Below, piece after piece: positions 1-24,251 of a DNA stretch of 24,251 nucleotides. The position numbers and the translations under genes were made by a program. The first letter of the stretch is position 1; each line of letters begins with the position of its first letter. The notes under the pieces were generated by a model that was not told the DNA's origin, ran no database searches, and worked only from the letters and a program-made list of their open reading frames with translations. This DNA is from a virus: positions 1 through 24,251 of the IMG/VR virus record IMGVR_UViG_3300010885_030603; one strand, given 5' to 3'.

Positions 1-1209
1 GCGTCGGGCGTATTAGGCGCGGCGTCAGGTGCAATATCAGGCGCATTGGGGGCGGTTAGCGGAGCAGTTGCCGGAGCAGCGGCAGGTGTACTTAATGCTG
101 TTGACAACGCAATTGGCACCGCGCTAGGAGCAGCCAACACATCTCTTATCGGGTCACTTGGTTGTGAAGCCGCTCCTGTCTCGGCTGCGTTAGGAAGCGT
201 TGCCGGATCGCTTACAAACTCAGTAAACCGAGCAGCAGTGACAACCGTCAACAACGGATTACGCAGCGTAGCCGGCCCAATTTTATCAGTTACTGGGTCC
301 ATAAGCGCGGCGAGTGGTTCGTTAAGTGCAATTAGCGGCTCACTAAGCAGCATAAGCGGTTCTCTAGGGGGAATTGAGGCACAATCGTCGTTGTCAACAT
401 TAGGAGCTTCTAGTTCATCTATTGGTTTTGCAAGTTCGGAAACCGCAGTAGGGGGATTTGCAAGCACAGGCTCATTGCTCAATAGTAGCGCATCCGGACT
501 GCAACAAGCAGCAATCTCAGTAAGTTCTGGATCATTGCAGGCTTCAGTATCGGCAACGGCTAGCGGAATTGATAACTTACCCGGCGGATCAGGGGCTATC
601 TCTTCTATTATAAGCAATTCTCCTATTTCCCCAACAACAATTGCCGGATTGGGAGCTATCTCGGCATTAGCGGGCCCTTGCTCTACTATTGGCGCCGCCG
701 CAGGAGCAGCAGCTTTGGCTGCAAGTGCTATTGATGCGGTTTCAGGGGACTTACTAGCACTAGCATCTGCGGGATTATCTGCAAGTGCATCTGCGAAATT
801 ACAAACAGCCATAGCGTCGATTGGATCCGGCGGCCCTTCACCAATAAAAATGCCTACTGTAGCAGTGAATACCGTAGACCGCGCTACAGTTACTGCTACC
901 GTTAACTCATTATTAGGAGATCCGAATATACCTGCACCCAATTATTTAGGTGAGGTTTCGGCTTCGGCTGTTACTGCATTAGAGCAAGTACAACAACAAG
1001 CAGATGCAGCAGTAGAATCAGTAGTTCAAATAGATGCTTATGATGCTCAACTACAGGCCGCTTATGAGGCATATGATCAAGCAACTCAAAGTTACCCTCA
1101 AGGAGATCCTCGCATTCAACAAACATACCAAACTTACCAATCTTTATCAACTTCGCCGCAATTAACACAATTATATAGCCAAGCTGATATTAATACCTAT
1201 CAGGTTTAA
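1..1209 (+). CDS. Ala/Gly/Ser-rich low-complexity protein, 5'-truncated
   Basis: The frame is open from base 1 to the TAA at 1207-1209, giving at least 402 residues; the true start lies upstream. The TTG at 46 could only be a nominal start, because the same low-complexity sequence continues before it. The first two thirds are dominated by Ala, Gly and Ser, with small-residue spacing that looks like glycine-zipper sequence, and include three tandem seven-residue SGSL-type units at 301-363. The last 90 or so residues change to Gln/Tyr/Ala-rich, probably helical, sequence. Two Cys are visible (the LGCEAAP and GPCSTIG segments). It ends 11 bases before the gp25-like gene, so it is probably co-transcribed with baseplate genes. 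I do not recognise a family. Its position would suit a baseplate spike, hub or PAAR-type protein with a low-complexity tail, but the informative N-terminus is outside the window. Its start looks richer in GC than its neighbours, which Ala/Gly codons alone could explain. Confidence 0.85.
   Translation, partial: ASGVLGAASGAISGALGAVSGAVAGAAAGVLNAVDNAIGTALGAANTSLIGSLGCEAAPVSAALGSVAGSLTNSVNRAAVTTVNNGLRSVAGPILSVTGSISAASGSLSAISGSLSSISGSLGGIEAQSSLSTLGASSSSIGFASSETAVGGFASTGSLLNSSASGLQQAAISVSSGSLQASVSATASGIDNLPGGSGAISSIISNSPISPTTIAGLGAISALAGPCSTIGAAAGAAALAASAIDAVSGDLLALASAGLSASASAKLQTAIASIGSGGPSPIKMPTVAVNTVDRATVTATVNSLLGDPNIPAPNYLGEVSASAVTALEQVQQQADAAVESVVQIDAYDAQLQAAYEAYDQATQSYPQGDPRIQQTYQTYQSLSTSPQLTQLYSQADINTYQV
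301..363 (+). repeat. Three imperfect 21-base tandem units in the Ala/Ser-rich gene
   Basis: Three consecutive seven-codon units encode ISAASGS, LSAISGS and LSSISGS, followed by a decayed partial unit starting LGG. Third codon positions differ between units, so this is an old or selected protein repeat rather than fresh DNA slippage. Confidence 0.7.
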
Positions 1210-1670: not shown

Positions 1671-1688
1671 TCTTTAAAAGTCGTATTT

Positions 1689-1720: not shown

Positions 1721-1722
1721 TT

Positions 1723-5154: not shown

Positions 5155-5165
5155 GTTTAAAATAA
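5155..5165 (+). promoter_or_regulatory. A/T-rich start region of the giant gene, no Shine-Dalgarno
   Basis: Eleven bases separate the gp6-like stop from the ATG at 5166, reading GTTTAAAATAA. There is no purine-rich GGAG-type site; the AATAAAT sequence runs into the start codon itself. Together with the other two starts, this suggests that this phage relies on A/T-rich, unstructured initiation regions. Confidence 0.35.
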
Positions 5166-8100
5166 ATGGCAACAGTAATTAGAACATTGGACTTCTTACC
5201 CGAGATATTTCAAACACCCACAAACCAACAGTTTTTGAGTGCAACATTAGATCAATTGGTAAATCCACCAAACCTACAACAGATTCAAGGTTATGTAGGT
5301 AATAGATTTGGATATGGGGTAAATGCTAACGATCATTATGTAACTGAGCCAGACGCCACACGAACAAACTATCAATTAGATCCGGGTGTAGTATTCATTG
5401 CTTCGGCAGATTCAATTAACCCGCCTGCAGGAACTGCCACAGATTTTATCAGTTATCCCGGAATGCTAAACGCTATTACTACAGCAGGTGGATTAGCTAA
5501 TAACAATAGTAGATTGTTTAACTCTCAATTTTATTCTTGGGATTCTTTCACAAACTTAGATCCATTAATTAACTTTAATCAATACTACTGGGCACCACAA
5601 GGCTTGCCTGCTGTTACAGTAGCAGCAGCAACAGTATATGATGCGGCAAGCTATATTGTGACTCCTGAAGCAGACGGCTATAAAATTTCTGTAGCAGGTA
5701 CAGGTTTTGGTAGCATTAATCCTACTCTTACCTTTATTAGAGGTGGCACCTATACGTTTTATGTTAATCAATCTACTCAATTTTGGATTCAAGGAGAGCC
5801 CGGTGTATTAGTTGCTAACCCATCAAATCCTAGTCAAAATGTTCGGCAGATATATGGTGTAGAAAATAACGGTGCTAAAAACGGAACTGTAACATTTACA
5901 GTACCCGCTGCTGATGCACAAAGTCAATATAGTTCTTTACAGGGAAATAATTTAGTAAGTGTAGTTAGTAATGTGCCGTATCAGGCTATCAATGGTCAGC
6001 TAGTATCATCTTTGCGTGGTATCGACGGAGTAACATCGTTAAATGGCTTGACATTAATGTTCTATAATACTGGTATACCAAATGAAGAAGGATTTACTGG
6101 TAGTTTCTTTGACAACGGTCAAAATGGACAAGCATACGATACTAACGACAATACGCTTACAACCCCGCAATCAATTAACATTACTGCAACAGCAACATCT
6201 GGCAATTTGATAACCTGTAGTTCAACAGCGAACTTAGTAGTAAATCAAGCAGTAACATTTACTGGAACTGCATTTGGTACTTTAATTCCTTCTACATCAA
6301 ATAATGATGTCTTGTATTTTGTTTCTAGCATTACTTCTCCTACACAATTTACAGTAGCTCTACAATTGAATGGATCTGAAGTAGTAATGCAAGATGCTGC
6401 AGGATCTATGACTTGCAATATTAATCAAGGGCTATATCAACAAGGATATATTAGCCAAGTAAATTTCAATTTCTATAAGATTACCTATATAGGAGACCCA
6501 TCTAATCCTATTATTAGTCTAAGCGTCGCCAGCGCAATACCGGTCAATCAAATTATTTCCGCAGTTTATGGTAACACCTATGGTGGCGCACGCTTCTTCT
6601 TAGATCAATATGGCAACATAGAAGAAATACCGTATATTTCAGCACCACTGAATACCCTTTATTATCAAGATGGTAGTAATCCAAATGCGGTAGGTGTTAT
6701 AAATCTTATCGAAGCTAATATTTCTAATCAATTGAACGTAGATACTCAAATATTAGGTAAACCAAATTTTACATCAAGCAATGGTGTGGCATTTACTAAC
6801 GGATTAAAAGTACAGTTTAATGGGGATGTAATCCCCACAAGTTACTTAAGTGGGCAGTATTATGTGCAGGGTGTTGGAATAGCAATTCAACTACTTCCAG
6901 TAACGGACTTTTCAGTTCCTGAACCATTCACCGGTAGTATTTATAACCTATGGGACTCTGCTCATTGGGATATTGATAATTTTGATGACACCCTTTATAT
7001 TCCTACAGTTCCTGACTATATCACAATTGCTAGAGAGGCATTGAATAGAAACCCATGGTCACGCAGTAATCGCTGGTTTCATATTGATGTGATCAAGGCC
7101 ACCGCACAGTATAACAATAATCCAGCGATTGTTACATCTTACGCTACTCAAGAAAATAAAGCGGCTAGACCAATTATAGAATTTTATCCAAACTTAGAAC
7201 TGTTTAATTATGGAACAGTGGGCGTAGGCGCAATTGACTTTATAGACTTTAGAACTACTGATTGTTTGAATCTAGTAGCAGGTCAACCTGTGTATTATCC
7301 AGATGTTGATGTGTATACAAATTATAATGCAACTATTAATAATCCCTTTACAACTACTGCTATATTTACTACGCCTACTAATATAAATGGTAGTACTTCG
7401 TATGCACGAATGTTTGCAGTTACTGTTAACTCAGCTGGATTGTTTGTAGCGGTTGGGTATGATAGTAACTATTATCCATTATATGCCACATCACTAGATG
7501 GTAGCACTTGGACTACTCCTGCACTAATGAATGGCAGTACCTCTGTTGCACGAATGACTTCAGTTACAGTTAATTCTGATGGCTTGTTTGTAGCAGTTGG
7601 ATATGGTGGCAGTAACTATCCAATCTACGCCACATCTAGTGATGGTAGCACTTGGACTACTCCAGCAGTAATTAACGGTAGCACTACTAGTGCAACAATG
7701 ACCTCAGTTGCAGTTAACTCAGCCGGACTATTCGTAGCGATCGGGTATGATAGTAACTCTTATCCATTATATGCCACATCACTAGATGGTAGCACTTGGA
7801 CTACTCCTGTTTATATGAATGGTAGCACCGCTGCTGCACAACTATATTCAGTAGCAGTCAATGCTGCTGGCTTGTTTGTAGCGGTCGGGTACGATAACAA
7901 CTATTATCCATTATACGCCACATCACTAGATGGTAGCACTTGGACTACTCCTGCACTAATGAATGGCAGTACTGTCCCTGTATACATGCAGGCTATAACG
8001 GTTAATTCATTTGGGTTATTTGTAGCAGTTGGTTCTGATCAATCAACACGTTTTCCTAGATATGCTACATCAACTGATGGTAGAACTTGGACCACACCCG

Positions 8101-11100
8101 CTAACATGAATAGCAGTAATCCCGCTGCTAACATAAATGCAGTCACCGTAAGCAGTGATGGATTGTTTGTAGTAGTTGGAAGTTATCTTAGTGGTTCTGG
8201 TAATGCTTTATATACAACATCAGTAGATGGAAGCACTTGGACAGCTTTTACAACAATGGGCGGCAGTGCTACTACGCAAACTCCGTTTGGGGTCGCAGTT
8301 AACTCTGATGGACTAATTGTAGCAGTAGGCTTCAATGCCAGCGATACCCCTATCTACGCTGATGCAATAATAACACGAATTGCTGATACCACCACTACTG
8401 TAATTGTACCGGCAAACGCAGTAACTGGCACCTTTGTAGTGGGCATGTACATTAATGATTCATTAAATATATTGCCACCAAATACTCAAATTACTAACAT
8501 TGAGGGCACCACAACATTAACTCTTACAGTATCATGGTTGAATCCTGCAATAATCGTAGGTGAATCAAAGATTTCTATTGTAGCTGATCCTAAAAGTAAC
8601 ACTAATTACGCACTATTTTCAGGAGCCAGAGTTCTATTTGCAGCCGATCCAAAAGAAAATACAAAAATATATGTTGTAAGTTTCTCTACAATATCAGAAG
8701 GGTCTACTCCGGTTATAACTCTTTCAGAAGCTCCAAATGGTAATCTTTTAGAAAATAATGTACTAGCAGTAATTAGAGGGTATAATTATCAAGGTTATAG
8801 TTTTTGGTATAACGGATTAAAATGGATAAAAGCACAACAAAAAATTACTGATAATCAAGCTCCTCTATTCGATGTGTTTGATTCTAGTGGAATAAGTTTC
8901 GGTGACCGTGCATATTATGTAGGCACCTCATTTAAAGGCTCAAAATTATTTGATTATGCGGTTGGCACCGGACCAGATGACCCAGTGTTGGGATTCCCGT
9001 TAAGTTATAGTTTGGTCAACAATATAGGCGATATAAGTTTTGATGTAACGTTCAATTCTGATACTTTTACATACGTGAACAGTGCTGTTCCCGTTACTAA
9101 AAATATTAATACAGGATTTGTTTACAATACTATTGGATTGCATGACCACACTAGGCTATTAGGTTGGCAAACAGCAGTAGGTCCTAGTGTACAATATCAA
9201 ATTTTTGAATTTAATTATGTACGAAATTATGTAACGCCAAATAATACTTTTCAATTAAATGTTGCACCAATAGCAATAGGTGTAGAACCTTGGCCAACAT
9301 TAGAAGTTTATGTAAACAATATTTTACAACCATCTACTAATTACACTGTTACGACTACAAGTACCACTACCACTGTAGTAATTAATATTCCTAACAGCAT
9401 AACACACACACTAGTTCAAGTTTTAATATTAAGTGACCAAGTGAGTAATACTGCATTCTATACAATACCCATCAACTTAAGTAATAACCCGTTCAATACT
9501 GATATTACAACTACAAATGTTGGTGATATCAGAAGGCAATATGCTAGTATCTTCAATAACTGTCCAAATACTACTGGTCAACTACTAGGTCCTAACAACT
9601 ACAGAGATTTAGGCAATCTAGTACCATATGGCAATGCTATTATACAAAATAGTGCATCATTAGTATTGCCGGCAATATTCCTGCGTAATTTAAATTACAA
9701 TATATTTGATTCTTTGGCTTATAATAGCAAGAAATATGTTGAATACAAAAACTTAATTGTTTACACAGTTAATAATTATCCGTTCGATCAGCGGTATGAT
9801 CCTGCCTATGTGTTGAATACTGCAATAGACCTCATAACCGCAACTAAAGATAATTCTCAATCATTCTTTTGGTCTGACATGATTCCTGCTAAAGCACCGT
9901 ATGCATCTAATACATACACCTTTAATAGTAATCTACAACAAACAATTTATCCTTTAACACAGACTTATAATTTTGAAACAGCAAATTACAATGGCGTATT
10001 AGTGTATGTAGCTAGAACAATTAGAGGATTGACAACTACTAAACAGCTAGTTATGAATCAAGAATATACCGTAAGTACAACAGCACCGTCATTAAGAATC
10101 ACCATTGATTTAATCCCCGGTGATGTTGTAACAATTAATGAGTATAATCAAACTTATGGTAGCTATGTACCAAATACTCCTACTAAATTAGGGCTATATC
10201 CTGCATTTATTCCCGAAGTTGTATTAGATAATGGTTACCAACAGCCAACGTATTTTATTAAAGGACACGATGGTTCATATAATAAATTGTATGGTGATTA
10301 TATTGCTGCTACAGATACTCTAGTAGACTTTAGAGATCAGGCACTATTAGAATTTGAAAAGCGTGTTTATAACAATCTTAAGTTAAGTAATACAATTCCA
10401 GTTCAAGCATACGAAGTGACTCCGGGTTTCTTTAGAAACACTGGCTACTCGTATGATGAATGGTTAGAAATCTATACGCCTGGATTCTTAAATTGGGTAG
10501 GACAAAATAGGTTAAACTACCAGCAACAATTCTATGATGCCAATAATCAGTTTACTTGGAATTATAAAAATACTACCAATAAAGTAGATAACACATTAAT
10601 ATCTCCTGGATACTGGAGAGGAGTGTATAGTTACTTTTATGATACAACAACACCTGAATCTACACCATGGGAAATGCTAGGCTACGTTAATGAACCAATT
10701 TGGTGGACAGAGCGTTATGGTCCTGCTCCTTACACTAGTAACAACTTAATTCTTTGGGGTGACTTAGCCGCCGGCTTAGACTGGAATAACGGTAATCCTG
10801 TAATAATCCCCAAAGCAGTGCGTAATGGATTATTGAAGGTTTTACCAGTAGACAGTCAGGGTAAGTTAGTATCACCTTTTGTTAGTGTAGTAAAGAATTA
10901 TTATACTCCATCACTCGATACTAATTGGGTAGTAGGAGATGACGGTCCCGTAGAATTCAGCTACAGAAGAAGCAGTAGTTGGCCATTTGATTTAATGCGT
11001 ATATTAGCGTTGACTAAGCCAGCCGAGTTCTTTAATTTAGGGGTATGGGTAGACGATTACAAGTATAATTTAGAGTTTAATCAATATCTAGTAAACGAAA

Positions 11101-14100
11101 GAAGTCACCTAGTACCTAATCAGATTCCCGTCTATGGTTTAGGGACACCTGTAACAAGTTATGTTAACTGGGTGGTTGATTATCAAAAGCAATATGGCAT
11201 TAATTCTACTGCTGCAATTACAAACATTTTAAATAACGTAGATGTAAGATTAGTTTATCGTTTAGCAGGGTTTAGTGATCAGAACTTACTGAATTTCTAT
11301 ATTCAGAGTACTAATCCTAACGCTAATAATTCATCATTGCAAATTCCAAATGAAAGCTATAAAGTATTACTCTACAGTAATCCGCCATATGGTATACTAC
11401 AGTACTCAAGTGTGATCGTGCAACTTACTACACAAGGACAATACGCTGTGTTTGGTAATTCACAGAGTGCAGCGTATTTTACAACGTACTTACCAAAAAA
11501 TGATGGGCATGTCAGTACTATAAAAATTGACCAAATAGCAGTAAAGGTAGCCGATAATTACACCACTACAGAAGAGATAGTACCGTATGGTACTATATTT
11601 CAAACACCACAAGCTGTGGCGATATTCTTAGCTAGTTACGGCGCTTATTTGCAAGCTAGCGGAGCGACTTACGAATATCAAGCCGGTGCAGTTCCAATCA
11701 CTTGGAGTCAAATGGTTGCAGAATTCCTGTATTGGGTACAGATAGGATGGCAGCCTGGTGCGGTAACAACATTAAATCCTGCAGCATATGAACTTACGAT
11801 TGATAAACAAGATCAAATTGTACAACCATTGAGTGTGCAGGGTGCAAACTTTGTACTAAATCAAAACTTGTATCCAATAAAAAATTCTGACTTGGCTATT
11901 ACAAGAGATGGAACACACTTTAGCGTAACACCATTAAACCAAGGTGATACTATCAGCTATGGTCAGTTTAATTTAAGTAATTTTGAAAATGCCTGTGTAT
12001 TCGACAATTATACATTATTTGGAGATACCATTTATGATTTAATAACAGGAATAAGACAAAACAGAATTTATGTACGAGGGGCTAAAACTGCGGGTTGGAA
12101 TGGAACATACAACGCATCTGGATTTATCATTAATCAAAATAATGTTAAACAGTGGTTACCTACCGCAAAGTACACTAAAGGACAGATAGTACTTTATAAG
12201 AATCAATATTGGATTGCTCAAGACATTGTGCAACCAAATGCAACCTTCCAGCAAAAGCTTTGGGCTCCATCAAACTATAAATCAATTCAAACAGGATTGC
12301 TACCTAATTCAAGTACCAACTCGTTAGATAGCACATACTATTACAGTAATGATCAGACTGCACTTAATCCAGACGCTAACTTATTAAGTTACTCATTGAT
12401 TGGATATAGGCAGAGAGATTATGCAGCAATAGCTGACTTGACCGATGTTACACAAATCAATGTCTATCAAAATCTAATCAAGACCAAAGGCAGTACGAAT
12501 GCTATTAGCGCATTTAAGGGAGCAACTTTACCACAAGGCGGAATTAATTACAATATACATGAAAACTGGGCTATATTAACTAGCAATTTTGGCGGTGTAT
12601 TAAACAATAGTTATGTTCAATTCCAACTTAATGCAGCAGTACTGAGCGGCAATCCATTCATCGTGGGGTTAACAGATGGGGTATACACACCTGGGGTAGA
12701 ACAAGAAGTACCTTTATATGCATTATACAATTATAACTATAATTCACCACCGACTAATCCTAATGTATTGCCTACAGTAAGCCAATATGTACCATCTACA
12801 TTGTTCCCCGATGCAGGATATGTAAATTTTAATGATGTCAAGATGTCAGCATATTTTTACTCGCAGTTAGCTAGTGCGACTAACCAACAAGGTATGGTTG
12901 TTCCACTAACTAATTTTTACGTAGGTGATTATGTTTGGTTAGCTAACTACTTGAATCAGTGGAATGTTTACACTCCAATATCACTTGGATCAGTAGTTCA
13001 AGTAAGTAATAATTTAAACAATACTTGCACGGTGACATTCTCACAAGTACATGAGTTAAAACAATATGATTTGATTGCTATCGCAAATTTCAATAATGCA
13101 GTAAATGGATATTATACGGTTACCAATGTAGTAAACAATTACCAAATTACTATATTATTAACATTAACCTCAAGTTCACGCCAAATTGTAGGTCAGGGTG
13201 TTGGTATGTATTTGTCGTCACAACGAGTAACTACACCTGCACAGATCGCAAATCTTCCATTAGCTGCGTCTGAGTTTGTCGATAACGTTGTTTGGGTAGA
13301 TACTAACACTGACGGTGGCTGGGCAGTATATCAAAAGACAATTAATTATAGCTTTGAAGAAGAGATCACTCAACCAGATAATATTAGTCAGTCATTTGGC
13401 GCAGCAGTTGCTTATAATAGCAGTTTAGGTGGCTATCTAATAGGTGATCCCAATAATAGCAATGTATATAGATACGATTATAACGCAGGTACTGGCGGAT
13501 ATGATCTATTTCAAACTCTTACTTATGGATCTGGATTTGGTGCTTCGGGATTAGGTGCTGCGATAGTTACTAAACAAAACATTTATGCAATAACAGCGCC
13601 GACTGCTACCCAACAATATCGCGGGGTTTACCTCTATGTACTTAATAATTCTATATTATCAGATAACCTAGTACCCTATCAACAAATTAACACGGATCTT
13701 TACCGCCCGTATTCAATCGCGCTATCTGGAGACACTAATTGGTTGTATGTAGGATTAAGTACAAGTACAGAAGAAGGTGACCTTAGCCAAGTTTGGGTAT
13801 ACCAAAAACAAAATATACTAGTGTCTGCCAACAACATGCAATATGGTCAGACATACACTATTGTTAGTGTTGGTAATACTGACTTTACCACTGTGGGTGC
13901 AATAGAAAATAAAGTAGGCATTTCATTTCTTGCTACAGAAGTTGCCCCCGGTGGTACTGGAGTAGTAACCCAATCTAACTATCAACAGGTTGCAACAATA
14001 GATGCTCCGATTTCTATTGGCGGCACTTATCGATTTGGTAGCTCATTAGCAACAGACTATTATGGTGAAAAATTAATAATTGGCCAACCCGATCTTCCTT

Positions 14101-17100: not shown

Positions 17101-20100
17101 AAGGTACCGTCGTAAAAGTACAAAATAATGGCGCTGGCGTTTCAGAGTGGTATATATTTGAGGGCGGAAATATATGGACACGTATAGGATTACAGAACGG
17201 GACCATACAGTTTAAGTCAAGTCTTTGGAATTATGTTAATGCCGGAACTGGCTGGGACGGTAATTTTTATGGTACTACCCCGTTTGATACGTATCCAAGT
17301 CAGGAAACATATTGGTTAGTTCGTGCGTTAACAGAACAAATCTACACTAATGAATTATTGATTTATAGAAATCAAAGCTTGATTTTATTATTCCAATATA
17401 TTCAAAGTGAGTCGGTATCTTCACAAAATTACCTAACTTGGTTAAATAAAACCTCATTGGTGGATGTCTCGCATAATATTAGGGCATTATTACCTTACGA
17501 AGTCTATCAATCTGATAATCAAGACTTCTTGACTGGTTACTTAGCAGAGGCATTGCCTTACCATGTGTTTATTAAACAATTCGTTTATGTATATACGGGA
17601 AGCGAATTATGGCGAGGTAATATAACTGATTTTGATTTACCTGCGCAATATAACACCACTGTAGACCAGTTTATATCACCGCAACTTGTTTATAGCAATG
17701 CTGATGGTGTTAACACATATTTACCAACTGCTCCAATTTGGCAAGAATCAAATTATAGTCAGTGGTTCAACAATTATGGTTTAAGTTTAGTTGGTCAACC
17801 TAATTTCTTAATCAGTACTTTAGCTGCCTATATGAGTCTCGGCAGTTCTACTATTGTAGTGGCTAATGCATCTGGTTTTCCTTTAAACGGGGTTATCACG
17901 ATTGATGCAGAACAGATCGCATATTCTACAGTAAACCGAGCAACAAACACCTTAACTAATTTAGTTAGAGGATACAACGGTACTAAAATTAGTATTCATT
18001 TACCCGGAACAAAAATCTACACTGATTTGCCAGCAGTATTGCTATTAAATGGCGGTAGAGGATATATTAATCCACCTAAGATAACTGCTTATATAGATAC
18101 TTCTGTTTACCCGGCACCAACTGTACCTGCCCAATTAGCAGCTATAATGAGTTTAGATACGGTTGTGGGAGTCAATGTAATTAACCCGGGTCAAGGCTAC
18201 GCAGTATTGCCAGAAATTATAATTGGATATTCTGAACAAATAATATTTGCAAGCTCAAGCGTTAACGTATTGCTTAATACTATTCAACTTTATGCACCGC
18301 TACTTCTAACAGGTGATTTAGTAAAATATGAGATGTCTCCTGGTGGTATGACTATTAGCGGATTGCAGAACAACCAATGGTACTATGTAAATGTATTACA
18401 AACTAGTCCCACTACTGTAATAGCACTATACACTACCTACGCAGATGCATTAAACGACACAAACAGAGTAGTGATATATAATCAAGGTTCTGGTAGTAAT
18501 CATACACTAAATTTAGGTGCAAATGCATCTGCTATCACTTCGTCTGTTCCAGTAAGAGAAAATATTATATCGTTAAAATTTGATAGAACAAGCTATAATT
18601 CTCGCGTGTCAGATTGGACAGCCGATGCATTTTATGGATCATTCTTTGCAGGTAGCTTATCAAATGCAGAGCAACTGTCTAGCTCTTCAGTAATATTAGA
18701 TAGTGCAAATCCTAATATTAATACAGTTTTAGCTAGTGAGCATGGCTGCTTGTTTGAGATAGTAGATGTTGGTAACAAACAACAGGTAGAATGGTCATCA
18801 TTTATTCGTAATGTATATGCTACAGTTATGGCTACGAACTCAGTAAACCTAATAACTGACGGTAGCATGGCAAACGCATCGGGTTCTACTGTTGGTATGA
18901 CAGTAGGGATGCCGGTAAAATTTACAGGCAATGTTGGCGCAAGTGGATTGGTAGTTGGCGTTGTGTATTATGTTGCCGAAATACTAAGTTTAACCGACTT
19001 TACTATATCAGAAACAGTAAACGGAAGCGTATTTCCGCTAAACGATCAGATTATTGCTACTACACTAACTTGTGCAGTGGCTCAAGTAATTAATACTGCA
19101 ATTATAACAGTAAACTATCCCGGAATAAGACAAGTTACTGCTACAACTGCTTCCTCAACTAACCCAGTAAATAATACGAGGGGGTATCTCACTGTACCAC
19201 TCTCTGAAGTTGGCACGGGAGGCACACAAGGATTCTATACAGGATTACCAGTATTCTTTGTTGGAAGTGTATTTGGTGGAATACGCGAAAATGACACATA
19301 TTATGTTACCACAGTATTAGATAATCAAAATTTTACGCTGTCAACTAGTTCAACTCCATTGACTGTACAAGTCAATTCTACAACTTTTGGAACAACTATT
19401 ATATTTGCACCGGCAATTGTAAACGGTGTTATTTATCAAATTCGATCAATAGGCACTACAGATTTTACATTGATTGGAGCTAGTTCAAATACTATAGGTG
19501 TAGTATTCACAGCGAATACTAGCGTAGTTTCTGGTACTGGAACAGGTACTGTGCTATTAGGAACATTCTACGTAGGTGTAAATTCTACAACTGGACTTTC
19601 AAAAAATGATCCTGTTGTTATCAATAATATGGTTATTGCTGGCACACCAGTTACTAATTTTGGTAATATTGACAATTCTACAATATATTACATATGGAGT
19701 GTTGTTGACGGATTCAACATAATACTTTCTACCCAGTTTAACGGCGATCCCTTCCCGGTTACTACCGTACCTTCAACTACTGATATTGCATCAACATCCT
19801 TAATTGTAGGTGTTACATATACTATCACATTTGTAGGAACAACTGATTTCACTCTTGTTGGCGCATCATCAAATACTCTTGGAGCGGTGTTTGTAGCTAT
19901 TGGTCAAACTACAGGAACAGGTACTGCATCTTGCAAGTCATACGCAACGTTAGTAGATCAGATAAACACGATACCATTAACTACTGCTAGCGGTGATATG
20001 ACAATTAACTTATCATTACCGGTAAGCCCTGGCCAAGTAGATGGTCAACTGTTTACATTCTACGAAACTTCTAATGAGTATTATCCAATTACCAGTGGGG

Positions 20101-23100
20101 TATTTAGTAATCCGTTAACTGGAACAATTGATGCTACAGTTGCTATATTAAACTATGTTGCATTATCATCTGCTAGTAGTGTAATTAATTTCTATATAAA
20201 TATGCCGCTGCAAGTAGGTACTAATATCGGCAATTTGACTACAGGCACAACTTACTACGTAACTGACATTGGAACTGTAAAAATAACGGTGACCAATACT
20301 TCGTCCAACAATCAATTAACTTGCAATAGTACTACTGCACTTTACGTTAATATGCCAATTATTTTCTCTGGTAACGGGTTGGATGGAATTGTGATTAGTC
20401 AAGAATATTTTATAAGCGAAATAATCGATGCTACCCATTTCACTATTAGTGGATCAATAGGCGGTAGCGTACTTATACTCACTACAGATAATGGTACTAT
20501 GACAGGCACCGGAGCTACATACGTTACGGTATCTACTTCTATAGGCGGCGCAAATGTTGCATTAGCAGACGCTTCAGGGCCAGTAACATATGAGCAAACA
20601 CCTATTGTATCTAGTATATTAGGAATTAGTTATTTGATTGGTGGATACTATGTAAACTTAGCTAATCCAGGCCAAGGTTATGCAGTCAGCAATATTATTA
20701 CTGTAAGTGGAACTGATGTGGGAGGCTCGTCCCCCCTAAATGATGTTACTATCACTGTGGATGCTGTTAATAATTACGGAAGAATAGTAAGTGCAATTGT
20801 TTCGGGAACAATACCTTCAGTCCCTCAAAATAGTTATTATCTGCGGGTCACTGGAACAAACACATTTGAAGTATATGAAAACCCACTACTTACCGTACCA
20901 GTGAGCGGACTTGACTTCCCTTATGTGGGCTTTACCGCTACAACAGCAACGGCAATTATCGATATTCCCATAGGTTGGACTACTCCGGCATTAATAAATA
21001 ATCCGTCTACCCTAGGTGTGGCCAATATGTCTATAGCGGTTAATTCATCTGGTTTATTGGTGGCCGTTGGTTATGTGTACGGGACTGCTGCGGTATATAC
21101 CACATCTACGGATGATGGTATTACTTGGACTACTGTTACTGAAATGCCTAACACCGGTCCAGCAAATATCTTCATAAATGCATTAACAGTTAATTCATCT
21201 GGATTGTTTGTAGCAGTTGGATACCTTAAAAATGGTTTTGGAAATGATTATGCCGCATTCGCTACATCTACTGATGGAAGCACCTGGACTACTCCAGCAC
21301 TAATGAACGGCAGTACTGCTACTGCACAAATGTATTCAGTAGCAGTCAATACTGCTGGACTTTTTGTGGCAGTCGGGTATAATGATACTAATTACCCAGT
21401 CTATGCTACATCAGCAGATGGTAGTACTTGGACTACTTCAGCATTAATGAATGGTAGTACTTCGTATGCACGGATGTTTGCAGTTACTGTTAATTCATCT
21501 GGATTGTTTGTAGCGGTTGGATATAATGGCAGTAACTATCCTGTATATGCTACATCTACTAATGGAAGCACTTGGACTACCCCGGCACTAATGAACGGCA
21601 GTACTGCTACTGCAATAATAACCTCAGTCGCAGTTAACTCAGCTGGACTATTTGTAGCAGTTGGGTATGATGGCAATAACTATCCAATCTACGCCACATC
21701 TAGTGATGGTAGCACTTGGACTACTCCAGCACTAATGAATGGTAGCACTACTATTGCAAATATGTCCTCAATCGCAGTCGATGCATCTGGACTGTTTGTC
21801 GCAGTTGGGTATGATGAAAGTGATTCTTCAATTTATGCTATATCTACAGATGGTAGTCTTTGGACTACACCGGCATTGATGGACAATGCTTATACTGCAT
21901 ATACAATCATGACCTCAATTGTAGTTAATGCAGTCGGAGAGTTTGTAGCGGTTGGCTTTAACGGTTCTAGCTATGTAATGAGCGCAAATTATCATCCAGG
22001 ATTAGGAAATGGCATTCAAGTCACTAGTGTTGCTGGCTTTGAGGTTAATGATGCTGTTGCCTTTACCGGAGCAGTGTTTGGAAATTATATAGCTGGTACC
22101 ATATATTATATTTTAACTATCGATGCACTAAACAATCAAATAACTGTCTCTACAACATTAGGTGGTACCACGCCATCACACACCGGCGCAACTCTGACTG
22201 GTTCAATGACAATGGCTAAAGTTGGGTCTTATACATTCTTGCCCGAACCGTTCTATTTTAATCAAAGCATTGTTAAATTCAATCATCAGTTGTACCGCTG
22301 CATTGTCAGCAACAACGACAAAGAATTTATATACGGTAAATGGGAGTTATTAGATTCTGGTGATAGTGCTATAAATGCACTAGATAGAATTGTTGGCTAC
22401 TACCAGCCAACAGTTAACATGCCCGGTTTAGGGTATTATCAAGCATCTGCACTACAAGCAGGTGTGCCAAGTATTGATTTCTCACAACTATTGACTGGCA
22501 CAACATATCCTAACAGTACATATATTGGTAATCCGTTTCAACCAGCTGATCAATTATTAATTGACGTAAAATTACAAGATGAGCCATTCTACCCAACTGA
22601 TATTAGTTTAAATGGGATAGTTTATAACGGTACTACTTACATAGCAACTGCCAATCTTTCAACTGGTGCTGCTACTGTTACTAATATAACAGACAATACT
22701 TGGTTTGTGAAGAACTTGACTAGTTCAAACTCTGGATTAACTTCTATTAACTATAGTAGTGGTAGTTCTTCACCTGTATATATCGTAACTACTACAAATT
22801 CTGCTACTCCAATACTAAGAAGTCAGGATGCACGAATTTGGTCATCGTTAGGATATTATACAAATAATAACACTACAACATTAAACTTAGCAGGACTGGC
22901 GTTGTATGATTCCGCATATGGATTAATTGGCAGTGTAGGTGTTTATGTCGCAGTAGGCACTAGTATTATAAAAAGCGTAGACAGTATACATTGGACAGAA
23001 ACGTATTCTTTTAGTAACTCTACTTTAGACAACATATTATATGGTGTTACTTATGCTAGTATTCCTGGATTTACTGGATTCGTTGCAGTAGGTGGAAATC

Positions 23101-24251
23101 AATATTATAGTATAATATTAACTAGCACTGACGGTGTTAATTGGATTTCGGCTAGTACGGCACTAAGCTATAATTCATTATATACGATAACCACTTCACT
23201 AACTACGCTGGTAGCAGTAGGGGAAAATGGAATAATTTACTATAGTTATGACGGACGTACTTGGTTTGGAGTCAACGAAACAAATGTAATTAGTACCAAC
23301 GGTTCTAATAATATATTAACTGTAGGAAATACTGCAGGGCTATTAGTAAATCAAGAAATAAAGTTTACTTCTTCATTCGATGTTATAACATCGGGTACTC
23401 TTTACTATGTAAAAAGTATAGTAAGTTCTACACAGATCACACTAAGCACTACTTTTGGAGGAAGTGAATTAGATTTGACCGGTGAAAATCCTGCTATATT
23501 AACATTACTTTATGCAGCACCGCACACCGTTAATTTGACCAATATTAGCTACCTAAATACATCATTTGTAGCTTTAGGTAACAATGGATTACTGTTAACA
23601 AGTACAGACGGTATATCTTGGACTACACAGGCACCGGGCACAACTCAAAATCTGCATGATGCAACTTACCATGCAGGTACGTATACAGTAGTAGGCGATA
23701 ACAACACAATTCTGCAATCTACTGATTTAATAACTTGGACAAATACCGCAAAGTTTACTATAGCACCTGCGGTGTACGATGTACAAGGTTCCTCATTTGC
23801 ATCAGGCTTCGGCCCAGAAGAGCTAGTAGCCGGCGTTGTCTCTGACAATTTATCAATGATTGTTAACACTCTTCCTGGAACCAACTGGGATCCTGCGCAA
23901 TATGCCCACACTGGCTACAACGTAGTGTCACTTCAGTTGACTCCTACAAGTTCAACTCAAACAGCTTATAGTTTTGCCGATGCTGTTCAAGTACCGGTAC
24001 AAGTAGCAGTTTATGTAATCGATTATACTACGCAATTATGCACTGGCATTTATGTTGATATAGATTATACAGTAGATTGGGTAACTAAAACGGTGATATT
24101 AAATATTCCGCTACCGTTCATACCAACAGTTGATTCTTTAAGAATAGATGTGTATGAAGTTGGTAACGGATTTCAATTAGTAAAATCCAACACTGACTTA
24201 GATCCTATTGTAACAAATTCAACTACTGGATTTGATCAAATTGTAGTAGAC
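5166..24251 (+). CDS. Giant modular baseplate/tail structural protein, gp7-position, 3'-truncated
   Basis: One frame runs open from the ATG at 5166 to the last base: at least 6362 residues, near 0.7 MDa, with no stop. Scaffold segments that recall the large structural protein after gp6 in aquatic T4-like phages are: NQYYWAP (about residue 138), NRNPWSRSNRWFH (627), NQAPLFDVFDSSG (1230), VLGFPLSY (1274), PWEML with WWTERYGPAPYTSNN (1834-1862), SSSWPFDLMR (1936), NLIKTKG and YNIHENWAI (2436-2466), WFNTTNVRFINYHQ (3610), and DRIVGYYQPTVNMPG (5740). Between them lie three Asp-box propeller arrays, an FG-GAP-like region, GTTDFT modules, YYV modules and GxGY motifs, each listed separately. The residues are mostly Asn, Thr, Ser, Tyr, Val and Ile, as in beta-rich virion proteins. 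No signal peptide, membrane segment, coiled coil or catalytic motif is evident. T4 gp7 has 1032 residues, so this protein is at least six times longer. The structural role is well supported by position and motifs. The gp7 equivalence and any receptor-binding role are inferred. Confidence 0.93.
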   Translation, partial: MATVIRTLDFLPEIFQTPTNQQFLSATLDQLVNPPNLQQIQGYVGNRFGYGVNANDHYVTEPDATRTNYQLDPGVVFIASADSINPPAGTATDFISYPGMLNAITTAGGLANNNSRLFNSQFYSWDSFTNLDPLINFNQYYWAPQGLPAVTVAAATVYDAASYIVTPEADGYKISVAGTGFGSINPTLTFIRGGTYTFYVNQSTQFWIQGEPGVLVANPSNPSQNVRQIYGVENNGAKNGTVTFTVPAADAQSQYSSLQGNNLVSVVSNVPYQAINGQLVSSLRGIDGVTSLNGLTLMFYNTGIPNEEGFTGSFFDNGQNGQAYDTNDNTLTTPQSINITATATSGNLITCSSTANLVVNQAVTFTGTAFGTLIPSTSNNDVLYFVSSITSPTQFTVALQLNGSEVVMQDAAGSMTCNINQGLYQQGYISQVNFNFYKITYIGDPSNPIISLSVASAIPVNQIISAVYGNTYGGARFFLDQYGNIEEIPYISAPLNTLYYQDGSNPNAVGVINLIEANISNQLNVDTQILGKPNFTSSNGVAFTNGLKVQFNGDVIPTSYLSGQYYVQGVGIAIQLLPVTDFSVPEPFTGSIYNLWDSAHWDIDNFDDTLYIPTVPDYITIAREALNRNPWSRSNRWFHIDVIKATAQYNNNPAIVTSYATQENKAARPIIEFYPNLELFNYGTVGVGAIDFIDFRTTDCLNLVAGQPVYYPDVDVYTNYNATINNPFTTTAIFTTPTNINGSTSYARMFAVTVNSAGLFVAVGYDSNYYPLYATSLDGSTWTTPALMNGSTSVARMTSVTVNSDGLFVAVGYGGSNYPIYATSSDGSTWTTPAVINGSTTSATMTSVAVNSAGLFVAIGYDSNSYPLYATSLDGSTWTTPVYMNGSTAAAQLYSVAVNAAGLFVAVGYDNNYYPLYATSLDGSTWTTPALMNGSTVPVYMQAITVNSFGLFVAVGSDQSTRFPRYATSTDGRTWTTPANMNSSNPAANINAVTVSSDGLFVVVGSYLSGSGNALYTTSVDGSTWTAFTTMGGSATTQTPFGVAVNSDGLIVAVGFNASDTPIYADAIITRIADTTTTVIVPANAVTGTFVVGMYINDSLNILPPNTQITNIEGTTTLTLTVSWLNPAIIVGESKISIVADPKSNTNYALFSGARVLFAADPKENTKIYVVSFSTISEGSTPVITLSEAPNGNLLENNVLAVIRGYNYQGYSFWYNGLKWIKAQQKITDNQAPLFDVFDSSGISFGDRAYYVGTSFKGSKLFDYAVGTGPDDPVLGFPLSYSLVNNIGDISFDVTFNSDTFTYVNSAVPVTKNINTGFVYNTIGLHDHTRLLGWQTAVGPSVQYQIFEFNYVRNYVTPNNTFQLNVAPIAIGVEPWPTLEVYVNNILQPSTNYTVTTTSTTTTVVINIPNSITHTLVQVLILSDQVSNTAFYTIPINLSNNPFNTDITTTNVGDIRRQYASIFNNCPNTTGQLLGPNNYRDLGNLVPYGNAIIQNSASLVLPAIFLRNLNYNIFDSLAYNSKKYVEYKNLIVYTVNNYPFDQRYDPAYVLNTAIDLITATKDNSQSFFWSDMIPAKAPYASNTYTFNSNLQQTIYPLTQTYNFETANYNGVLVYVARTIRGLTTTKQLVMNQEYTVSTTAPSLRITIDLIPGDVVTINEYNQTYGSYVPNTPTKLGLYPAFIPEVVLDNGYQQPTYFIKGHDGSYNKLYGDYIAATDTLVDFRDQALLEFEKRVYNNLKLSNTIPVQAYEVTPGFFRNTGYSYDEWLEIYTPGFLNWVGQNRLNYQQQFYDANNQFTWNYKNTTNKVDNTLISPGYWRGVYSYFYDTTTPESTPWEMLGYVNEPIWWTERYGPAPYTSNNLILWGDLAAGLDWNNGNPVIIPKAVRNGLLKVLPVDSQGKLVSPFVSVVKNYYTPSLDTNWVVGDDGPVEFSYRRSSSWPFDLMRILALTKPAEFFNLGVWVDDYKYNLEFNQYLVNERSHLVPNQIPVYGLGTPVTSYVNWVVDYQKQYGINSTAAITNILNNVDVRLVYRLAGFSDQNLLNFYIQSTNPNANNSSLQIPNESYKVLLYSNPPYGILQYSSVIVQLTTQGQYAVFGNSQSAAYFTTYLPKNDGHVSTIKIDQIAVKVADNYTTTEEIVPYGTIFQTPQAVAIFLASYGAYLQASGATYEYQAGAVPITWSQMVAEFLYWVQIGWQPGAVTTLNPAAYELTIDKQDQIVQPLSVQGANFVLNQNLYPIKNSDLAITRDGTHFSVTPLNQGDTISYGQFNLSNFENACVFDNYTLFGDTIYDLITGIRQNRIYVRGAKTAGWNGTYNASGFIINQNNVKQWLPTAKYTKGQIVLYKNQYWIAQDIVQPNATFQQKLWAPSNYKSIQTGLLPNSSTNSLDSTYYYSNDQTALNPDANLLSYSLIGYRQRDYAAIADLTDVTQINVYQNLIKTKGSTNAISAFKGATLPQGGINYNIHENWAILTSNFGGVLNNSYVQFQLNAAVLSGNPFIVGLTDGVYTPGVEQEVPLYALYNYNYNSPPTNPNVLPTVSQYVPSTLFPDAGYVNFNDVKMSAYFYSQLASATNQQGMVVPLTNFYVGDYVWLANYLNQWNVYTPISLGSVVQVSNNLNNTCTVTFSQVHELKQYDLIAIANFNNAVNGYYTVTNVVNNYQITILLTLTSSSRQIVGQGVGMYLSSQRVTTPAQIANLPLAASEFVDNVVWVDTNTDGGWAVYQKTINYSFEEEITQPDNISQSFGAAVAYNSSLGGYLIGDPNNSNVYRYDYNAGTGGYDLFQTLTYGSGFGASGLGAAIVTKQNIYAITAPTATQQYRGVYLYVLNNSILSDNLVPYQQINTDLYRPYSIALSGDTNWLYVGLSTSTEEGDLSQVWVYQKQNILVSANNMQYGQTYTIVSVGNTDFTTVGAIENKVGISFLATEVAPGGTGVVTQSNYQQVATIDAPISIGGTYRFGSSLATDYYGEKLIIGQPDLPYSGDVSNWGAAYVYDRSVQNFQSQHESRTTTNPQPQFFDLTWVPAENPILGSQPPQFIGTTTVSASNYIGYTATVAPFNLSYYAQGTPVIFSGGNLGSSGLKNNIIYYLNEIAGSYFTVVASFEDIGTSNNVPVNDDSGLSFRIYFQFDPIMVYLNGTVVDSRHYGVIWDLSGEYAQLVYTSPLVAGDILTVSGSNFTLTQTLTTQNTPQVGVQFGTSVDITTYGNEIIVGAPFELTQQLVEGAVYRFTNSGSSYGQVIGTAPVFTSAPRVILINGFAVTIPAGADATLAASTIVSASIINVTASATTDNTLIINLIDVALAPVDEKLSITTVDSLAFDELGIQIYTQTQVVLCPHTEGRTQFGTVIKFNESGSFVASAPVGTRYEDTTFDVVLYPDQDTIFDNNTTQFIDTYPNAGAVYMFDYLGVYHETIYNTGAFVYAQSVNATNLTYGPQPRYGTSLDFVDNKVIVGTPKMYNYDTNATALISNVTYTIVFVGTTDFTLIGASSNTVGTVFTATGPGTGSGVATDGQLQSYGQAVTYSNPIGVQDWEVYRQTSAIVDTSRIGYMQIFSAQTNNTLVNLDYFDPLQNKLLGAIAENIDIISNTDPASYNNGNVTQRGLVWGAEHVGTLWFNTTNVRFINYHQDDVVYNSKYWGAVFPGSDVAIYSWVASNTPPANYQGPGTPYSINLYSVEPVLNASQAAVPTYYFWARNTNIIFTKQNKTLSDNVLASYINSPVNSGISYMAPILPNVFSVYNAQQYLNGNDSVFNIGYSTGTTNDEHHTEYALIRENYAEDFLPGLPTLVNPNPSLLYQRLLYSLAGTTIFIGKPPDIVTAPSLIKGQSYQIITIGTTNFTLVGAGLNPKIGEVFTATGPGTGTGTTLFVATTYVVPDPYLPIRVQSGVSPRPQQTFFLDRLTALQNYFEFANNTLIKYPIAETREGAPYLYQVGSANPSNNNLPFFNTADYWEFVNWWAPGYDNSIRSSTVVPFYADLITLSVAEGTVVKVQNNGAGVSEWYIFEGGNIWTRIGLQNGTIQFKSSLWNYVNAGTGWDGNFYGTTPFDTYPSQETYWLVRALTEQIYTNELLIYRNQSLILLFQYIQSESVSSQNYLTWLNKTSLVDVSHNIRALLPYEVYQSDNQDFLTGYLAEALPYHVFIKQFVYVYTGSELWRGNITDFDLPAQYNTTVDQFISPQLVYSNADGVNTYLPTAPIWQESNYSQWFNNYGLSLVGQPNFLISTLAAYMSLGSSTIVVANASGFPLNGVITIDAEQIAYSTVNRATNTLTNLVRGYNGTKISIHLPGTKIYTDLPAVLLLNGGRGYINPPKITAYIDTSVYPAPTVPAQLAAIMSLDTVVGVNVINPGQGYAVLPEIIIGYSEQIIFASSSVNVLLNTIQLYAPLLLTGDLVKYEMSPGGMTISGLQNNQWYYVNVLQTSPTTVIALYTTYADALNDTNRVVIYNQGSGSNHTLNLGANASAITSSVPVRENIISLKFDRTSYNSRVSDWTADAFYGSFFAGSLSNAEQLSSSSVILDSANPNINTVLASEHGCLFEIVDVGNKQQVEWSSFIRNVYATVMATNSVNLITDGSMANASGSTVGMTVGMPVKFTGNVGASGLVVGVVYYVAEILSLTDFTISETVNGSVFPLNDQIIATTLTCAVAQVINTAIITVNYPGIRQVTATTASSTNPVNNTRGYLTVPLSEVGTGGTQGFYTGLPVFFVGSVFGGIRENDTYYVTTVLDNQNFTLSTSSTPLTVQVNSTTFGTTIIFAPAIVNGVIYQIRSIGTTDFTLIGASSNTIGVVFTANTSVVSGTGTGTVLLGTFYVGVNSTTGLSKNDPVVINNMVIAGTPVTNFGNIDNSTIYYIWSVVDGFNIILSTQFNGDPFPVTTVPSTTDIASTSLIVGVTYTITFVGTTDFTLVGASSNTLGAVFVAIGQTTGTGTASCKSYATLVDQINTIPLTTASGDMTINLSLPVSPGQVDGQLFTFYETSNEYYPITSGVFSNPLTGTIDATVAILNYVALSSASSVINFYINMPLQVGTNIGNLTTGTTYYVTDIGTVKITVTNTSSNNQLTCNSTTALYVNMPIIFSGNGLDGIVISQEYFISEIIDATHFTISGSIGGSVLILTTDNGTMTGTGATYVTVSTSIGGANVALADASGPVTYEQTPIVSSILGISYLIGGYYVNLANPGQGYAVSNIITVSGTDVGGSSPLNDVTITVDAVNNYGRIVSAIVSGTIPSVPQNSYYLRVTGTNTFEVYENPLLTVPVSGLDFPYVGFTATTATAIIDIPIGWTTPALINNPSTLGVANMSIAVNSSGLLVAVGYVYGTAAVYTTSTDDGITWTTVTEMPNTGPANIFINALTVNSSGLFVAVGYLKNGFGNDYAAFATSTDGSTWTTPALMNGSTATAQMYSVAVNTAGLFVAVGYNDTNYPVYATSADGSTWTTSALMNGSTSYARMFAVTVNSSGLFVAVGYNGSNYPVYATSTNGSTWTTPALMNGSTATAIITSVAVNSAGLFVAVGYDGNNYPIYATSSDGSTWTTPALMNGSTTIANMSSIAVDASGLFVAVGYDESDSSIYAISTDGSLWTTPALMDNAYTAYTIMTSIVVNAVGEFVAVGFNGSSYVMSANYHPGLGNGIQVTSVAGFEVNDAVAFTGAVFGNYIAGTIYYILTIDALNNQITVSTTLGGTTPSHTGATLTGSMTMAKVGSYTFLPEPFYFNQSIVKFNHQLYRCIVSNNDKEFIYGKWELLDSGDSAINALDRIVGYYQPTVNMPGLGYYQASALQAGVPSIDFSQLLTGTTYPNSTYIGNPFQPADQLLIDVKLQDEPFYPTDISLNGIVYNGTTYIATANLSTGAATVTNITDNTWFVKNLTSSNSGLTSINYSSGSSSPVYIVTTTNSATPILRSQDARIWSSLGYYTNNNTTTLNLAGLALYDSAYGLIGSVGVYVAVGTSIIKSVDSIHWTETYSFSNSTLDNILYGVTYASIPGFTGFVAVGGNQYYSIILTSTDGVNWISASTALSYNSLYTITTSLTTLVAVGENGIIYYSYDGRTWFGVNETNVISTNGSNNILTVGNTAGLLVNQEIKFTSSFDVITSGTLYYVKSIVSSTQITLSTTFGGSELDLTGENPAILTLLYAAPHTVNLTNISYLNTSFVALGNNGLLLTSTDGISWTTQAPGTTQNLHDATYHAGTYTVVGDNNTILQSTDLITWTNTAKFTIAPAVYDVQGSSFASGFGPEELVAGVVSDNLSMIVNTLPGTNWDPAQYAHTGYNVVSLQLTPTSSTQTAYSFADAVQVPVQVAVYVIDYTTQLCTGIYVDIDYTVDWVTKTVILNIPLPFIPTVDSLRIDVYEVGNGFQLVKSNTDLDPIVTNSTTGFDQIVVD
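6204..6416 (+). repeat. YYV-type beta module, copy 1
   Basis: Residues 347-417 of the giant protein. The pattern begins LITCSSTANLVVNQAVTFTG, continues with a loop, LYFVSSI, then FTVALQLNGSE and closes near GSMTC. The same order (short strand, P/A-[hydrophobic]-F-T/S-G, YYV/YFV, FT[IV]S, a GG/GS turn, GSMT) recurs about nine times in this protein. This copy is N-terminal to all propellers. Confidence 0.6.
7365..8366 (+). repeat. Asp-box propeller array A (seven units, 144-base period)
   Basis: Residues 734-1067. Units of 48 codons (49-50 in the last two) carry the consensus SVAVNSAGLFVAVGYD, then YPLYATS, DGSTWTTPALMNGST. There are seven 'GLFVAVG' strands and six Asp boxes (SxDGxxW). The array starts with the tail half of a unit (FTTPTNINGST) and ends with the head half (GFNASDTPIYAD), so the seventh unit is split between the ends. 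That is the usual closure of a ring-shaped propeller. Unit copies at 7455-7521 and 7743-7809 match over 67 bases with one difference, so the array has expanded or been homogenised recently. Asp boxes are structural turns in BNR/sialidase-type propellers and do not imply an enzyme. Confidence 0.85.
12153..12272 (+). other. Possible small CBM5/12-like segment in the giant protein
   Basis: Residues 2330-2369 read WLPTAKYTKGQIVLYKNQYW, then IAQD and, after a short gap, FQQKLWAP. The order Y-x2-G-x2-V-x-Y-x2-x-Y-W-x-A ... W resembles the small aromatic chitin-binding CBM5/12 fold, which is common in phage structural proteins. A related, weaker segment occurs at about 22260-22350 (SIVKFNHQLYRC, then KWELL). 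Sugar binding is only a possibility. Confidence 0.4.
13845..13967 (+). repeat. GTTDFT module, copy 1
   Basis: About 41 codons: GQTYTIVSVGNTDFTTVGA, then IENKVGISFLAT and GGTGVV. This is the most divergent of five copies and lies inside the FG-GAP-like region. Confidence 0.7.
14283..14512 (+). repeat. YYV-type beta module, copy 2 (divergent)
   Basis: Contains GTPVIFSGGNLGSSG, then IIYYLNEI and SYFTVVAS. It matches the module pattern through P-V-I-F-S-G and YYL but lacks the GSMT close. It is inserted between FG-GAP-like units. Confidence 0.55.
15561..15680 (+). repeat. GTTDFT module, copy 2
   Basis: Forty codons: NVTYTIVFVGTTDFTLIGA, SSNTVGTVFTATGPGTGSG. It directly follows the last FG-GAP-like unit. 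Bases 15638-15668 are identical to 16703-16733 in copy 3 (31 bases). Confidence 0.8.
16623..16742 (+). repeat. GTTDFT module, copy 3
   Basis: Forty codons: GQSYQIITIGTTNFTLVGA, then GLNPKIGEVFTATGPGTGTG. It shares an exact 31-base stretch with copy 2 over the FTATGPGTG part, although the flanking bases have diverged. Confidence 0.8.
17835..17998 (+). other. Conserved 'ITIDxExIxY ... RGxNGT' segment
   Basis: Residues 4224-4278. It contains SSTIVVANASGFPLNGVITI, DAEQIAYS and LVRGYNGTKISIH. I recall this pattern (short strand, G-x-I-x-I-D-x-E-x-I-x-Y, then R-G-x-N-G-T and His) from tail and baseplate proteins of aquatic phages. It is a small beta element of unknown function. Confidence 0.5.
18048..18240 (+). 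repeat. Paired GxGY motifs
   Basis: NGGRGYINPPKITAYI begins at 18048 and NPGQGYAVLPEIIIGYS at 18183. A third copy, NPGQGYAVSNIITVSG, begins at 20664. The G-G/Q-x-GY turn followed by P and a beta strand is a frequent small repeat in phage structural proteins. Its function is not known to me. Confidence 0.5.
18837..19073 (+). repeat. YYV-type beta module, copy 3
   Basis: Contains VNLITDGSMANASGSTVGMT, VGMPVKFTG, VVYYVAEI and LTDFTISETVNGSVFPLND. This is a well-kept copy. It opens a run of small modules (18837-20513) between scaffold segments. Confidence 0.7.
19143..19373 (+). repeat. YYV-type beta module, copy 4
   Basis: Contains GLPVFFVGSVFGGI, DTYYVTTVLDNQNFTLSTSS. It keeps P-V-F-F-x-G, YYV and FTLS in the same spacing as copy 3 and follows it closely. 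Confidence 0.7.
19425..19553 (+). repeat. GTTDFT module, copy 4
   Basis: Forty-three codons: GVIYQIRSIGTTDFTLIGA, SSNTIGVVFTANTSVVSGTG. It has a three-residue insertion before the GTG close. It sits between YYV copies 4 and 5. Confidence 0.8.
19563..19766 (+). repeat. YYV-type beta module, copy 5 (divergent)
   Basis: Contains LSKNDPVVINNMVIAGTPV, TIYYIWSVVDGFNIILSTQ and FNGDPFPVTT. YYI and ILST replace YYV and FTIS, but the spacing is kept. Confidence 0.5.
19809..19928 (+). repeat. GTTDFT module, copy 5
   Basis: Forty codons: GVTYTITFVGTTDFTLVGA, SSNTLGAVFVAIGQTTGTG. It is closest in wording to copies 2 and 4 and directly follows YYV copy 5. Confidence 0.8.
20133..20300 (+). repeat. YYV-type beta module, copy 6 (short)
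   Basis: Contains NFYINMPLQVGTNIGNLTTG, TTYYVTDIGTVKITVTNT. It lacks the closing GG...GSMT part and runs straight into copy 7. Confidence 0.5.
20301..20513 (+). repeat. YYV-type beta module, copy 7
   Basis: Contains LTCNSTTALYVNMPIIFSGN, then YFISEIIDATHFTISGSIGG and NGTMTGTG. This is the clearest match to the consensus, including the M-P-I-I-F-S-G strand and the GTMT close. Confidence 0.7.
20973..21998 (+). repeat. Asp-box propeller array B (seven units)
   Basis: Residues 5270-5611. It has the same unit as array A: seven 'GLFVAVG'-type strands and six Asp-box positions (one has N for D, TNGSTW). It starts with a half unit (GWTTPALINN) and ends with the complementary half (GFNGSSYVMSANYH), the same split as array A. 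Bases 21677-21731 are identical to 7613-7667 in array A (55 bases), and 21450-21493 matches 7386-7429 with one difference. Both pairs share the offset 14064. The first two units are more diverged and longer. A YYV module (22005) follows directly. Confidence 0.85.
22005..22211 (+). repeat. YYV-type beta module, copy 8
   Basis: Contains NGIQVTSVAGFEVNDAVAFT, TIYYILTIDALNNQITVSTT and TGSMT. It links propeller array B to the scaffold segment with DRIVGYYQPTVNMPG at 22383. Confidence 0.65.
22821..23738 (+). repeat. Asp-box propeller array C (diverged, interrupted)
   Basis: Residues 5886-6191. Six Asp-box-like segments are visible: SQDARIW (22821), SVDSIHW (22974), STDGVNW (23124), SYDGRTW (23244), STDGISW (23601) and STDLITW (23718). 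Strands such as VYVAVG, FVAVGG, LVAVGE, FVALGN and YTVVGD accompany them. Unlike A and B, the units are divergent at both DNA and protein level and vary in length. A YYV module (23292-23512) splits the array between the fourth and fifth boxes. A further weak blade may follow (SDNLSMI with GTNWDP, about 23848-23894). Confidence 0.7.
23292..23512 (+). repeat. YYV-type beta module, copy 9, nested in array C
   Basis: Contains ILTVGNTAGLLVNQEIKFTS, LYYVKSIVSSTQITLSTTFG and GSELDLTGEN. It sits between two Asp-box blades, so it would project from a loop of the propeller without breaking it. Confidence 0.65.

Follow-up and report, generated by a model that had tools for sequence, protein, structure and literature searches.

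Jumbo myophages of the RaK2/121Q type, which are T4-like, encode a large protein that PHROGs lists as family 10938 under the name virion structural protein. Its named members have lengths of 3,323 aa in 121Q (gp582), 3,326 aa in RaK2 (ORF070), 3,340 aa in CBB (CBB_236), 3,771 aa in Vibrio 2.275.O, 3,807 aa in SCTP-2 (gp140), 3,857 aa in PA5oct (gp355), 4,449 aa in Atu_ph07 (gp180), and 4,555 aa in Phosso (294). CBB_236 was detected in virions by mass spectrometry with 21 unique peptides and a coverage of 7.72% (PMC5259590, Table 4), and gp355 is flagged ESI-MS/MS in the PA5oct record. The gene lies directly 3' of gp6 in 121Q, RaK2, PA5oct, CBB, Atu_ph07, Phosso, and Vibrio 2.275.O; the gene of T4 gp7, the baseplate wedge initiator of 1,032 aa, is likewise located 3' of gp6. 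Proteins of up to 7,694 aa, some of them tentatively structural, were reported from huge phages in 2020, although the family treated here is not named in that report (PMC7162821).

In this study, we analysed the window, an entire record of 24,251 bases. A single frame starts at the ATG at position 5166 and is still open at the last base, giving 6,362 codons without a stop in table 11; no other frame of such length was observed in the window, and the stop lies outside the record. An earlier note had correctly described this frame as having at least 6362 codons.

The locus and the protein family

PHROG 10938 matched three pieces of the giant ORF with E-values of 2e-65, 7e-128, and 9e-36, and the profile match spans residues 9 to ~3774. 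Pairwise matches to the named jumbo phages reach about residue 4,290, and further on only uncultivated relatives match. Thus, the earlier description of motifs of one structural family at residues 138-5740 is correct only in part. Judging from these matches, the giant ORF can be solidly assigned as an oversized PHROG 10938 member of RaK2/121Q-type jumbo myophages. A megablast search against named phages gave no match, and hence the phage is considered to be uncultivated. A search of NCBIfam also gave no match.

As shown in Table 1, the giant ORF is located directly 3' of a gp6-like gene, which is preceded by a gp25-like gene; the locus had rightly been recognised as a phage baseplate locus. 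The 805-aa protein encoded before gp25 showed a faint hub-lysozyme match (phrog_27932, 2.2e-6, residues 119-248). Further upstream, an overlapping contig carries gp53-like, gp5/hub-like, gp55-like/late sigma, and gp46/47-like/SbcC/SbcD genes. In its gene content, the cluster agrees with that of the named phages.

Table 1 Features identified in the window
Feature	Position	Strand	Evidence or remark
3' part of 805-aa Ala/Ser/Gly-rich hub-region protein	1..1209	+	complete in L079:12482-14896
gp25-like baseplate wedge protein, 149 aa	1221..1670	+	Pfam PF04965, 27.3 bits, cut-off 27.2
gp6-like baseplate wedge protein, 1,143 aa	1723..5154	+	phrog_10646, 9.7e-234
Giant virion structural ORF, 6,362 codons, 3' end past record	5166..24251	+	open frame, dN/dS, profile match
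N-terminal segment, residues 1-160	5166..5645	+	kept in all members including 121Q, RaK2, CBB, PA5oct, Atu_ph07; candidate docking part
Array 1, residues 734-1067: six 48-residue units and two complementary halves	7365..8366	+	
Family core, residues 1424-2327 (PHROG 10938 positions 595-1466)	9435..12146	+	7e-128
FG-GAP-like repeats, residues 2742-2896	13389..13853	+	
Further FG-GAP_2 match	14733-14837	+	
Family core, residues 3527-3774 (PHROG 10938 positions 1796-2070)	15744..16487	+	8.9e-36
~75-residue beta repeats and 38-residue GTTDF modules	17823..20975	+	uncultivated clade only
Array 2, residues 5269-5608, second seven-blade array	20970..21989	+	only in the window among the loci read
Conserved BNR-like repeats, residues 5854-6197	22725..23756	+	in most uncultivated relatives

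The gp6 adjacency of the family is not universal. In Salicola phage SCTP-2 (MF360958.1), the gp6 match is found at 231-235 kb and the giant gene at 128-139 kb, about 90 kb apart; SCTP-2 shares the profile and the N-terminal segment with the window, as do Atu_ph07 and Phosso, but is the exception in gene order. Gene position is also the one basis on which the giant ORF may be called a wedge protein. We infer a tail placement for the PHROG 10938 protein, against which the PHROGs category of the family, 'head and packaging', has to be counted.

The reading that we prefer, with a probability of about 0.6, is that the giant ORF encodes an enlarged PHROG 10938 scaffold arm at the periphery of the baseplate, which would be attached to the gp6 wedge and carry putative glycan-binding propellers; its location and orientation and the binding are what we infer. 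The conserved N-terminal part and the core would anchor the protein to the gp6 wedge, and the protein would take the place held by gp7 in T4. The long C-terminal half, expected to consist of beta sandwiches and propellers strung together, would reach outwards, and the propeller arrays may bind cell-surface glycans and aid the first contact with the host.

Relation to T4 gp7

The earlier note had compared the giant protein, as one of wedge type, with T4 gp7, and this comparison is based on gene order. Kinship with gp7 could take the form of a true homologue that has diverged past sequence recognition, a possibility that we regard as unlikely but deserving serious consideration: the order gp25-gp6-giant gene resembles T4 gp6-gp7, and no other gp7 is evident in eight relative genomes, in which T4 gp7 as the query found nothing. 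When 450-residue windows and the N-terminal segment of the giant protein were compared by hhalign with six gp7 sequences, however, the scores were equal to those of the reversed controls throughout. Profile searches of the PDB with the giant protein did not retrieve gp7.

Subsequently, the fold was compared using AlphaFold2 models of residues 1-735 and 1640-2699, whose overall pLDDT values were 57.6 and 62.3, respectively, with domains at 80-90. Among the 50 best Foldseek matches of these two low-confidence models in the PDB, there was no gp7; laccase/cupredoxin-like, E1-FCCH-like, and endosialidase beta domains were found. In BFVD, Foldseek retrieved the giant protein's own family, including Atu_ph07, and homologues from uncultivated phages in UniProt are already held there. 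Residues 1-147, which are kept in every family member, gave no fold when modelled alone; this would be expected of a gp7-like bundle that needs gp6 partners, and any interface requiring gp6 may behave in this manner. The gene following the giant gene in relatives is phrog_11259 and showed no gp8 match, which may also count against a diverged gp7. No sequence, profile, or fold similarity to gp7 was detected, the fold comparison being made on models of low confidence, and homology to any solved baseplate protein was not detectable.

Modules and propeller arrays

The named family members are without the C-terminal half and the propeller arrays of the giant ORF, whereas the uncultivated clade has about 3,000 residues more than the named phages, past residue 4,290. 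In the entire giant protein, 10 copies of the ~75-residue beta repeat, a kind that corresponds to E1_FCCH by Pfam in one relative, and 5 copies of the 38-residue GTTDF module were detected. Pfam BNR_2 was also found above its cut-off. The IMG/VR relatives G002, G003, G007, G009, G012, G013, G015, G016, G018, G023, and G051 show the same architecture with 33-86% identity, and all of them are without array 2. These observations support the earlier view of one very long, modular virion structural gene with inserted repeated modules in a T4-like baseplate cluster.

Arrays 1 and 2 are inserted seven-unit arrays, each of which begins with a second-half unit, continues with six full 48-residue units, and ends with a first-half unit. 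Seven-bladed propellers are classically closed in this manner, by six units with two complementary halves, and the two arrays are accordingly predicted from their unit counts to form closed seven-bladed beta-propellers. The best sequence match of both arrays in the PDB was the seven-bladed lectin PLL2, with E-values (array 1, 3e-6; array 2, 2e-3) that are inflated by compositional bias. Like the Photorhabdus lectins PLL2 and PHL, which they match weakly in sequence, the arrays have seven repeats of ~48 residues with Trp in nearly all of them. In PLL lectins, which have seven blades, the sugar sites are located between the blades (PMC6943638). These lectins are stand-alone and secreted, whereas the rings of the window are inserted in a giant structural protein and their sugar binding is putative.

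Array 1 is shared with G003/G004 only, and array 2 was found in no other locus read. At the DNA level, the blades of arrays 1 and 2 are up to 87% identical to each other, whereas identity between the blades of G003 and those of the window does not exceed 76%; synonymous sites elsewhere are saturated. Because the blades of the two arrays are closer to each other than to those of G003, the arrays have been copied or homogenised within the giant gene since its split from G003, and this exchange or duplication was recent. We tentatively propose that a baseplate scaffold has turned into an adhesin by insertion of lectin-like propellers at two sites of the giant protein, with homogenisation by intragenic recombination, although we give this proposal much less than an even chance.

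The 48-residue propeller was also observed in unrelated phage proteins, namely those encoded at L092:1502-4456 (985 codons) and L091:2284-4299 (672 codons). In the former, the propeller is joined with DUF7483, a family of tail-fibre/virion structural proteins (Pfam 9.8e-80).

The strings of beta domains and propellers, the lectin-like arrays that differ among relatives, weak matches to tail-fibre PHROGs, and a core domain placed by Foldseek near phage endosialidase/tailspike domains would all be expected if the giant ORF encoded an adhesin like a tail fibre or side fibre within the baseplate cluster. In that case, the conserved part would serve for attachment only and most of the mass would be a receptor-binding fibre. 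We consider this reading, which together with a diverged gp7 is the main alternative, rather doubtful, since the conserved core exceeds 2,500 residues, which is much larger than an attachment peptide, and adjoins gp6 across distant jumbo phages. Furthermore, the core is under the strongest constraint, with a dN/dS of 0.03-0.07 at residues 1501-2500.

Extent and integrity of the frame

The chance of a stop-free run as long as the giant ORF is about 1e-193 given the base composition of the window, and the other five frames contain 373-635 stops over the same stretch. The codon-position composition is uniform from the start to the window edge. In comparison with the three nearest relatives, dN/dS was 0.03-0.26 in every computable 500-codon block along the ORF, and thus the giant ORF is selected as a protein over its length. 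Recoding of stop codons was considered and is unnecessary, since no stop interrupts the frame in table 11 and the upstream genes stop with TAA, TAA, and TAG.

Processing of a precursor into more than one virion protein, or translation of multiple products from internal starts, would agree with the low peptide coverage of CBB_236, which is compatible with processing, and with the nature of propellers and beta strings as separable domains. Such an arrangement seems improbable. A Shine-Dalgarno-like sequence was found upstream of 1 of 58 in-frame ATGs and of 10 of 315 out-of-frame ATGs, showing no excess over chance, and the frame is unbroken in all relatives checked but one. At the sequence level, no sign was seen of the separate internally started proteins that the earlier note had named as a refutation. 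Nor was the frame broken, which was its other refutation; it is retained in an independent contig and in many assemblies made independently.

Closed orthologous frames with stops were obtained from 10 records, encoding 5,555, 6,057, 6,118, 6,282, 6,378, 6,450, 6,463, 6,491, 6,494, and 7,256 aa. In 36 further records, an uninterrupted frame of 4,694-7,757 codons was observed, a part of them being ended by contig ends. The independent contig, G026 (loci L079 and L080), overlaps bases 1-10703 of the window and differs by 12 substitutions without any indel; this overlap of 10.7 kb runs through array 1, and array 2 and the final 13.5 kb of the window are covered by one contig. With this contig and the many closed orthologues, the giant gene is real and not an assembly artefact. 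That repeats or chimeric joins had lengthened the frame is very improbable: the window is a metagenomic contig with internal repeats and one relative has a broken frame, but the independent overlap, array blades no more than 87% alike, and more than 20 other assemblies with long frames argue against it.

The sole relative checked with a broken frame is G019, in which about 60 codons are absent and the frame is shifted near residue 3,600 (L037 near 18007). The frame resumes after the break and reaches the same C-terminus, and both a deletion and an assembly error are possible.

In a MAFFT alignment, the ten closed relatives extend 535-1,513 residues past the last residue of the window, with 1,041 residues in the two nearest relatives and 853-1,115 in most. 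The complete protein is thus probably ~7,200-7,450 aa, of which ~850-1,115 residues would be missing from the record. Its visible part has a mass of 688 kDa and a pI of 4.3. The closed relatives have in common the C-terminal motif TWN..GDPLQI..T...FL and identical following genes. A contig with the 3' end of exactly this gene was sought, and distant relatives only were found.

A further branch of the family was observed in L171-L177, in which the frames have 3,573 codons or more and the C-terminal motif is a related one; a C-terminal domain of 140 residues is shared with the window at 31-38% identity. Another family member is carried by G052, a half-megabase phage contig of 524,565 b. Downstream of the giant gene in relatives such as L060 and L062, three short tail-type genes are followed by runs of 3-5 paralogous ORFs with CxxxPW..CC motifs, which look radical-SAM/SPASM-like by eye and have an epimerase-like gene beside them. 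These genes may constitute an island for the modification of surface glycans or peptides.

Discussion

The size of the giant ORF, which the earlier note had called exceptional, is normal for its clade. Frames of ~5,500-7,750 codons are usual there, and the longest, of 7,757 codons, was found in G051:C1 near 30829-34005. Likewise, the protein cannot be called undescribed: its named orthologues are annotated and share with it the profile, the N-terminal segment, and, in 121Q, RaK2, CBB, and PA5oct, the place after gp6, CBB_236 is proven by mass spectrometry, and published phage proteins fall in the same size class. The size class and the annotated family are therefore known already, and it is the homogenised lectin-like arrays that deserve further attention.

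Virion proteins of ~0.7-0.8 MDa belong to the largest proteins of viruses, and their production is routine in this clade. If one copy is present per wedge, the six wedges would add more than 4 MDa, and T4 alone would not suffice as a model for such baseplates. The two homogenised propeller arrays provide a concrete case of the growth of a giant protein and connect a structural gene with glycan recognition in a way that can be tested. If the scaffold is indeed an adhesin, the wedges of the contractile tail would themselves bear multivalent rings that bind glycans, and the host range could shift via blade exchange inside a structural gene.
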